NCBI GenBank assembly: GCA_036405135.1
Contig: DASWYF010000002.1
Location: 1 to 64,000 of the forward strand
Source: Verrucomicrobiia bacterium
GTDB lineage: Bacteria; Verrucomicrobiota; Verrucomicrobiia; Limisphaerales; JAEYXS01
Length of the DNA: 64,000 bases
Reading direction: 5' to 3'
A program made the position numbers and the translations under genes. Positions 42,383 to 44,285 of this stretch are shown here, one piece after another. Within the stretch, counting starts at the first letter, position 1, and each line of letters begins with the position of its first letter. The notes under the pieces were generated by a model that was not told the DNA's origin, made no database searches, and was given only the letters and a program-made list of their open reading frames with translations.

Positions 42383-42419
42383 TAGGGCAAGATGAGCACG
42401 CTCACAGCCTCGCCCTACC
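42383..42419. repeat. Hairpin of the GGTAGGGCGAGGCT family supplying a stop codon
   Basis: On the minus strand GTAGGGC pairs with GCCCTAC and an inner TGAGC pairs with GCTCA, giving a two-level hairpin. The SGNH hydrolase stop TAG (42415-42417) is the TAG inside this GGTAGGGCGAGGCT string, so the element itself ends the gene. Confidence 0.7.
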
Positions 42420-43284
42420 GTGGCTTTAGGTTCTCTTCAATCACCTTCGCCACCTGTTTGCCTAGCGCCTCGTAACCTTTGGCGTTGAAATGCACGTCAT
42501 TCGGATTCTGCAATGTAGGGAGCTGGGGCGTGATGAACGTGAACAGGTCATCTATTACCATGCCGTGCTTCTTCGCCAGCTTGGCTGCGATCTCATTCCG
42601 TTCCACGATGGATGCAGCGGTTTGTTTTTTGGCGGCATCATCCGGGATGGGTGTGGAACTGGCCCAGACGAGTTTGGCTCCGGTTTTCGCCAAACGTGTG
42701 ATGATTTCCTCTAAACGCTTTTCATAATCCGCCAATGGCGTGGCACGATCATGGATGCCGAAGTTGAAGTGGATGACATCCCATTTGCCGTTGCCTAGCC
42801 ACACATCGAGCTTCTTCAAGCCGTTGGCGGTGGGGCCGCAATTCTCCGGGGCACGATGCACGTTAGCCTTGCCGATCAACGCCGCACGCGTGGCCATGGT
42901 ATAGCCGCGTGAAACGGAATCACCGATCAAGAGTACGCGTGGCAACTTGGGATCATCCTTCACGTAATCCCATGCATTCGCGATGCCGTTTACCTTTTCC
43001 TTTTGGTGAATGGGGAAATAGAACGAGCCGAGATTTTGCTGTAAGACGGTTTCCCACGCCTGATGTTCAGGCGGCAAAGTGGCTTTCCACTTCTGGTAAG
43101 TTTCATTCAAGGCCTTGTCTGCCGCCGCTTTTTTGGCAGCGGCTTCAGCGGCGTTGGTGGGCTCGGCGGATTTGGTGGCATCGGCGGCGGAAAGACTGAA
43201 GCTGGTGATAAAGCACGCAGTAGCTACAGCGACCAGAGTGCAGGGCTTACGGAGCGCGACTCTCCGAGTCGCAGCAAGGTCCAT
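42415..43284 (-). CDS. Secreted SGNH/GDSL hydrolase
   Basis: A 289-residue secreted esterase-fold protein. Catalytic Ser is in LIGDSVSRGY, the block containing Asn in HFNFGIHD, and the Asp-His pair in DVHFN, all in SGNH order. The ATG at 43284 gives MDLAATRRVALRKPC followed by a hydrophobic core; ATG 43305 is an alternative. The first dozen codons lie inside a palindromic element that also follows the upstream gene, and the stop codon lies inside another repeat. The substrate is unknown; in this phylum such enzymes often act on polysaccharide esters. Confidence 0.8.
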   Translation of the reverse strand: MDLAATRRVALRKPCTLVAVATACFITSFSLSAADATKSAEPTNAAEAAAKKAAADKALNETYQKWKATLPPEHQAWETVLQQNLGSFYFPIHQKEKVNGIANAWDYVKDDPKLPRVLLIGDSVSRGYTMATRAALIGKANVHRAPENCGPTANGLKKLDVWLGNGKWDVIHFNFGIHDRATPLADYEKRLEEIITRLAKTGAKLVWASSTPIPDDAAKKQTAASIVERNEIAAKLAKKHGMVIDDLFTFITPQLPTLQNPNDVHFNAKGYEALGKQVAKVIEENLKPR

Positions 43285-43359
43285 AATTTCGAGCGCGTTG
43301 AGCATGTCTAAAACCTTTTTGGTTTGCGGTAGTTGCTGCGGCTCGGAGAGCCGCGCTCC
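43251..43359. repeat. GGAGCG-family element inside a signal-peptide coding region
   Basis: GGAGCGCGACTCTCCGAGTC then GCAGCAAGG (from 43251) and TTGCTGCGGCTCGGAGAGCC then GCGCTCC (to 43359) are terminal inverted repeats with inner hairpins. The right end lies 2 nt from the TAA of the aldo/keto reductase; the left end encodes the first residues of the SGNH hydrolase. CTTAC flanks both ends and could be a target duplication. Confidence 0.75.
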
Positions 43360-43361
43360 AC

Positions 43362-44285
43362 TTACGGCAATCGCTCACCTCGTGCAGCTTCCAGCAAGGT
43401 ATACCACTGTTCCCGAGTGAGATTTACGTTCAGGCACTCTGCCGCACTGCGGATGTGCGCTGGATTCGGTGAGCCCACGATCGGTACAATCTTGCTTGGA
43501 TGCTTGAGTAGCCAAGCGAGTGCCACCGTGGAGCGCGTGCTGCCGAGTTCCTTCGCCAGCTTGTCGAGAGCGGCGGTGACGCGGGCTGGATCATACTTCA
43601 TCTGGCCGGGCAGCAGGCTGCTCGCGCCGTTACCCAGCAAGCCGCCGCCGAGCGGGCTCCACGCCATCGGCGTCATGCGACGCTCGAGGCATTGATCCAG
43701 CGTGCCATCCGTGAATCTTTCGATCTGCATGAGGCTGATCTCCACCTGATTGCTCAGGATGGGGAAGGGCAGGGCCGCTTGCAGCATGGAGACTTGTGGG
43801 GGGCTGAAATTGCTCACACCGAATTCACGCACCTTGCCGCTTTGGCGCAACTTGCTGAACGCATGGGCGACTTCAAACGGATCGCAGAGCCAATCCGGGC
43901 GATGCAATTGATAGAGATCAATCGTCTCGACGCCGAGGCGTTGCAACGAGGCATCGCAGCAGTTCAGGATGTAATCCTTGCTGAAATCATAACGCACCGG
44001 ATGGCCCAGCTTTTCATCGGGTTTACGGATGCCGCATTTCGTGGCAATGATCAAACGTTCGCGCAAGCCTTTCACCTCTTTCAACACACGACTGAAGGCG
44101 ATCTCCGAATGTCCGTCGCAATAGATGTCCGCATGGTCGAAGAAGGTGTAACCGGTATCGACGGCGGCCAAGACAGCCTCGCGAGCGGCGGCGTAATCTT
44201 TCTCGCCGTTCTCGGCGATGCGCCAGCAACCATAAGAAAGGCGGGTGACGCGGATGGAACTGGAACCCAGAAGAATGCTTTGCAT
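43362..44285 (-). CDS. Aldo/keto reductase
   Basis: A 307-residue NADPH-dependent reductase of the (beta/alpha)8 AKR fold. The catalytic tetrad is present: Asp in TFFDHADIY, Tyr in the same motif, Lys in LIIATKCGIR and His in DLYQLHRPDW. The nucleotide phosphate site is near KIVPIVGSPN. It looks like the YdhF/AKR11-12 group. Its start is 57 nt from the divergent thioredoxin-like gene. The substrate cannot be assigned. Confidence 0.9.
   Translation of the reverse strand: MQSILLGSSSIRVTRLSYGCWRIAENGEKDYAAAREAVLAAVDTGYTFFDHADIYCDGHSEIAFSRVLKEVKGLRERLIIATKCGIRKPDEKLGHPVRYDFSKDYILNCCDASLQRLGVETIDLYQLHRPDWLCDPFEVAHAFSKLRQSGKVREFGVSNFSPPQVSMLQAALPFPILSNQVEISLMQIERFTDGTLDQCLERRMTPMAWSPLGGGLLGNGASSLLPGQMKYDPARVTAALDKLAKELGSTRSTVALAWLLKHPSKIVPIVGSPNPAHIRSAAECLNVNLTREQWYTLLEAARGERLP

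Follow-up and report, generated by a model that had tools for sequence, protein, structure and literature searches.

A repeat pair at a reductase–hydrolase junction

The window analysed here, the whole stretch of 64,000 nucleotides, comprises positions 1–64000 of contig C2 in a genome of 5.8 Mb and 52 contigs (G000). On its minus strand an aldo/keto reductase gene lies upstream of a gene for an SGNH/GDSL hydrolase (Table 1), and their junction is occupied by two inverted arms of 27 nt each (43251–43277 and 43333–43359), 93% complementary and spaced 55 nt apart. The first-pass annotation had placed a repeat at 43251–43359, and this repeat is real: a 25-nt consensus, allowed up to 3 mismatches, finds two matches in the window and none in 100 shuffles, and the repeat belongs to a genome-wide family with 72 matches to a 22-nt pattern (again at up to 3 mismatches), against 0 for the reversed pattern. 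The arms represent two head-outward REP-like units. The head of the right unit falls 2 nt past the reductase stop codon, and the left unit, read on the minus strand, becomes codons 8–18 of the SGNH gene; the reading from ATG 43284 is M-D-L-A-A-T-R-R-V-A-L-R, just as had been claimed.

Table 1. Coordinates of genes, repeat units and associated motifs around the junction (window positions)
Feature	Position	Strand	Basis
SGNH/GDSL hydrolase gene (296 codons and a stop)	42415–43305	−	Open frame; Lipase_GDSL_2 PF13472, 42.9 bits
CTTAC left of the pair	43246–43250	+	Within SGNH codons 19–20 on the minus strand; direct reading
Left REP-like unit	43251–43286	+	GGAG head, 7-bp hairpin 43256–43272, tail AGCAAGGTCCATAA; family pattern plus tail
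Repeat-encoded residues MDLAATRRVAL, codons 8–18	43252–43284	−	Translation and codon positions
Spacer (probable native leader plus codons 1–7, MLNALEI, with ATG at 43305–43303)	43287–43332	−	Alignment to G002 leader
AAAAAGG, Shine-Dalgarno-like, inside the spacer	43314–43320		Direct reading
Right REP-like unit	43333–43359	−	0 mismatches to family pattern
CTTAC right of the pair	43361–43365	+	Includes reductase TAA stop codon; direct reading
Aldo/keto reductase gene, upstream of SGNH	43362–44285	−	PF00248, 204.5 bits

The open frame of the hydrolase begins earlier than had been noted, at ATG 43305 between the two units, and reads MLNALEI-MDLAATRRVALR.... Codons 1–80 offer as possible in-frame starts ATG 43305 (codon 1), ATG 43284 (codon 8), CTG 43236 (codon 24) and two TTG codons (66 and 77), along with the rare ATT and ATC; between codon 8 and codon 66 there is no ATG, GTG or TTG. 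ATG 43284 is itself part of the repeat tail and, on direct reading, has no Shine-Dalgarno-like site upstream. A start codon provided by the element, as had been proposed, is not supported: ATG 43305 lies in the spacer, 26 nt past the GCAGCAAC tail of the first unit (25 nt in the genus-mate G002), has AAAAAGG 8 nt on its 5' side and is collinear with the start in G002. These features lend modest support to a main start that is probably ATG 43305 and not repeat DNA. The accompanying proposal, that the repeat forms the head of a signal peptide, survives in part: codons 8–18 are repeat DNA lying between the start and the hydrophobic core, and the main start codon probably falls outside it.

Over 243 codons downstream of the putative signal peptide, comparison with G002 gives dN 0.07, dS 1.33 and a dN/dS of ~0.05, values indicating that this part of the gene is under purifying selection, and the enzyme is probably exported. 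The presumed native n-region, MLNALE, contains no lysine or arginine and has a net charge of −1 when codons 8–23 are left out; with these codons the charge is +2, compared with +1 in G002 and +2 in G001, the second genus-mate. The charge figures fit, and do not prove, a repeat that may now supply the charge of the signal peptide.

A family of REP-like units and its possible mobility

Eighty-eight units, defined as lying within 4 mismatches of four references, were collected from the 193 kb of G000 around the matches, and a more general family pattern gave 73 matches in G000, 4 in G001 and 10 in G002 (control matches 1, 1 and 0). In a unit, the GGAG head and a single following base lead into a 7-bp stem closed by a 3-nt loop; AGCAAC comes next, and then a tail of looser sequence. 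Stem variants covary (GGCTC/GAGCC, GACTC/GAGTC, GGGTC/GACCC and others). Five measures were used to test this structure. The stem is paired in 92% of cells (32 distinct variants), against 23–37% for slid partners. The covariation score of 0.334 exceeds the shuffled mean of 0.134, with 0/500 shuffles as high, although among these 32 variants related rows can exceed shuffles; double-changed cells number 32 against 12.9 in shuffles (0/500 as high). Two measures were unexceptional against shuffles, namely the number of stem pairs showing a double change (3 against 2.4; 225/500) and further stem pair types (7 against 5.6; 43/500).

Most units (81 of 88, by our own hexamer gene caller) are intergenic, though coding calls cover 90% of the window. 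They occur singly as well as in pairs, and the 23 head-outward pairs among them are 102–158 bp long. Eight of these form a short class of 102–110 bp that includes the 109-bp window pair, and in seven of the eight, the window pair among them, the two arms have differing stems. An ATG at the same outward-strand offset as 43284 is present in 15/88 units, the frame reading A-A-T-R-R-V-A-L or variants, and a stop interrupts that frame in 9/88. By inspection, most of the outward open frames from other units seem to be fortuitous, extending the frame 5' of what is likely the native start.

Several attributes of REPs are evident in this family: a short, many-copy and mostly intergenic hairpin, compensatory stem changes, and inverted, head-outward pairs. 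As in REP/REPIN systems with their RAYT (TnpA-REP), a short hairpin stands behind a conserved tetranucleotide, head-outward pairs occur in mostly intergenic positions, and the genome contains a RAYT gene between inverted hairpins. The conserved block of the present family begins with GGAG (GTGG arises in 15/88 units through a preceding GT) and not with the canonical foot tetranucleotide GTAG or GT[AG]G; we thus call the unit REP-like and do not file it as a REP. Published heads are GTAG, GT[AG]G or variants close to these (PMC3733652, PMC2817692), and the degenerate heads given in the first of these papers are GYAG, GYRG, GTRG, GTMG and GTGG, a set that does not include GGAG. The window unit resembles REPs of the type GTAG-GAGCG..., minus GTA, that are tabulated in the second (PMC2817692).

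G000 has eight Y1_Tnp matches. The gene at C20:86076 is a REP-associated tyrosine transposase (RAYT; NCBIfam NF047646, 94.5 bits against a cut-off of 80), and of the eight it alone lies between two inverted GGAG-headed hairpins; these differ from the window family in stem and tail, and no other copies of them were found in 277 loci. A further Y1 gene, at C6:7488–7832 (L124), is an IS200-type transposase by score, with inverted GTAG-headed hairpins (GTAGnCGTGGACGAAGTCCACG) on both sides that recur in the 277 loci only at L145 and L210, in the same contig stretch. Because neither flanking hairpin pair has the stem of the window family, mobility of the units in trans through a RAYT is something that we infer. 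Of 58 genomes searched, 50 had a Y1 match, and 30 loci were kept from many more matches listed. No GGAGCG hairpin was present within 500–600 bp on each side at any of 37 Y1 loci (8 own, 29 from relatives), and a RAYT flanked by exactly the window family was not found at these loci among the matches listed. The sole family unit less than 1.5 kb from a Y1 gene of this genome (L124) is one inside a decarboxylase gene. Two Y1 genes of relatives (L248 in G010 and L254 in G042) are flanked by inverted GTAGCCGTGGG... hairpins of ordinary REP style.

Origin of the long hydrolase N-terminus

The order reductase–SGNH is common to all three genomes examined of the genus (G000, G001 and G002); a reductase match was seen at only five of 85 loci, some of them short, and all five come from these three genomes. 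At the G001 junction there is no repeat, and 13 nt separate the reductase stop codon from MTNSRKYSIVLAGLMLVVGLSPVHGAD. At the G002 junction, a single unit from a different stem subfamily (GGGACTGTGTCCC) comes directly after the reductase stop and is followed by MFQQLKLTIAAASLCFITSINVFAAD. The N-terminus in G000, MLNALEI-MDLAATRRVALRKPCT-LVAVATACFITSFSLSAAD, is longer than in either genus-mate. The cysteine that opens CFITS falls at codon 31 in G000 and at codon 15 in G002, a difference of 16 codons, by which the putative signal-peptide n-region would be longer than in G002; 36 nt of this is recognizable unit and ~12 nt is unexplained by it. Comparison of orthologues, one of the checks suggested for the earlier claim, supports the part that concerns codons 8–18: their residues are absent from G001 and G002, and 41 N-termini examined among 80 homologous loci lack them too. 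These 80 loci were drawn from at least 575 matches, and 75 of them have at least 200 nt upstream; within this set G002 alone has a family unit close to the start of the gene, and the unit lies upstream of that start. Neither genus-mate provides an exact empty site: G001 is without the element, but its leader differs, and in G002 a different unit occupies this place.

In two species, then, this junction is occupied by units whose stems belong to different subfamilies (window 43333–43359; L010, G002:C98). The site may be a hot spot that was hit independently, or one unit may have been replaced by another where it stood.

We favour, at a probability of roughly 0.6, the explanation that the second of the two head-outward units was inserted singly and in frame into the n-region of the SGNH signal peptide. 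The first unit occupies the usual place of a REP, directly 3' of the reductase stop codon, and the second would have entered after about codon 7. Translation would begin at ATG 43305 and continue through the repeat, and the two arginines of the repeat, together with the adjacent arginine and lysine, would provide the positive charge of the signal peptide. We prefer insertion of a single unit beside a native start because of the likeness of the spacer to the G002 leader and the outcome of spacer comparisons over 44 pairings. The local alignment score of spacer and G002 leader, 34, was reached by 3/2000 shuffles and 1/5000 genomic windows, and the end-free global score by 7/2000 shuffles and 1/5000 genomic windows. 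With the repeat tails trimmed, 14/3000 genomic windows reached the score, the best alignment lay outside the collinear register, and the spacer of the pair at C22:43409 equalled the G002 leader at the trimmed score of 24; a heptapeptide comparison gave 26/1927. Once the tails are trimmed, the apparent kinship of spacer and leader is modest.

Insertion of the whole 109-bp head-outward pair as one mobile unit that replaced the old start would mean that the element contributed the leader, the n-region and the two in-frame ATGs, as the first-pass annotation proposed. Its length within the short class, the unlike stems usual there and the position of both starts inside the outer ends of the pair are consistent with this, and in two of the 44 oriented comparisons with spacers of other pairs the score exceeded 200/200 shuffles each. 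However, a shared mobile spacer did not emerge among the pairs, as the best match over all 44 comparisons was reached by 78/400 genomic windows. The resemblance of the spacer to the G002 leader, the unit that G002 already carries at the right-hand position and the lack of a target duplication across pairs also argue against transfer of the pair as a whole, which we regard as doubtful.

Rather improbable is a repeat that stays untranslated, with translation starting at CTG 43236, which would read LVAVATACFITS, or at a later codon, and with the arms acting on expression as a 5' hairpin of the mRNA. CTG is a rare start codon. Starting there would leave no charged n-region, the next ATG, GTG or TTG is codon 66, past the signal peptide, and the Shine-Dalgarno-like site belongs to ATG 43305. 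As RNA, the two arms can form a long stem of −60.5 kcal/mol (z −5.0, 0/200 shuffles as low) with the start in its loop, and an effect of this modelled stem on expression, in addition to a coding role, is possible. Non-coding 5' REPs have been inferred in other bacteria by a survey, which cautions that translation may start downstream of many REPs located at the 5' end of an open frame, so that these may be non-coding (PMC3733652, section 15).

An extension of the in-frame insertion would make the repeat unit a portable head for export signals, which here rescued or rerouted SGNH export, perhaps from Sec to Tat; we consider this a long shot. A relaxed form of the Tat motif is RRx[FGAVML][LITMVF], usually with F. 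The stretch TRRVALRK is twin-arginine-like and fits this pattern, but without the usual F, and the signals of G001 and G002 look Sec-like by eye. TatC was found in all three genomes, and a stretch with the pattern near the start occurs at L080 alone among the 80 homologous loci (of at least 575).

The inverted repeats, with CTTAC nearby on either side, might suggest a classical MITE moved by a DDE transposase with a 5-bp target duplication, yet five matching flank bases occur in this pair alone of 23, the other 22 having 0–3, and units also occur singly, each with its own covarying hairpin, which makes this explanation barely credible. CTTAC had been described as flanking both ends of the element; the left copy does abut it, but the right copy is one base off (A at 43360). 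Re-paired flanks equal the flank match of the 23 pairs in 23% of shuffles, and the CTTAC flanks are probably chance.

Units within genes and their possible significance

Units fall inside called genes in 7 of 88 cases, distributed over five genes including SGNH. A gene for a PLP-dependent decarboxylase (C6:9061; L210, C6:8078–9403) contains a 69-nt in-frame insert, SRELLRLGESRS, that holds a unit and is absent from five aligned relatives (G002, G005, G014, G017 and G019; row L216, from G008, was left out because its frame was without the requested motif). The match in G002 has one TAG inside the aligned stretch. From this alignment, the decarboxylase insert appears to be a cleaner in-frame precedent in the same genome than the SGNH case. 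The IS200-type gene at C6:7488, with its GTAG hairpins, adjoins the decarboxylase gene. An ApbE gene (C22:43381–43547; L203, L234) has three units at its 5' end; two of them, head-outward and of the GGAGCGCCGG subfamily, enclose a signal-like stretch, and the third, of GGGACTGTGTCCC type, lies upstream. In CopA, a copper-type P-ATPase (C26:10181, L006), a unit is in frame in G000, in a loop; as a clean insertion this case was set aside, the stretch being 219 nt in G000, 219 nt in G002 and 213 nt in G001. The unit at C19:63719 is separated by 9 nt from the 3' end of its called gene.

Intragenic REPs have been described, with the GTAG ones most numerous in Opitutus terrae, as have head-outward dimers (PMC3733652). 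The intragenic REPs of Opitutus terrae and other bacteria share with the present units their position inside protein genes, in one case in a verrucomicrobial genome, and include N-terminal cases (PMC3733652). In contrast to those, comparison with relatives argues here that the N-terminal unit may be translated, in the n-region of a signal peptide, and the text of that survey does not contain 'export', 'twin-arginine' or 'signal peptide'. Rickettsia palindromic elements, of ~150 bp and in ten families, have nearly half of their copies in open frames (PMC10969869). Set side by side with the window unit by description, they are likewise palindromic repeats in frame in unrelated genes, whereas only 7 of the 88 units of the window family lie in called genes. 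The open-access literature yielded, under the terms used, no case of repeats in signal peptides or start regions. Repeats inside genes are already known, and the coding of an export-tag head appears to be a use worth testing.

REPs are usually treated as non-coding. If a unit is indeed translated as part of an export signal at this locus, the case, set against genus-mates that lack the unit, would provide a concrete means of testing whether the destination of a protein can be altered by small mobile hairpins. The internal insertion in the decarboxylase gene offers a second test in the same genome, and the ApbE signal between two units may be considered likewise.
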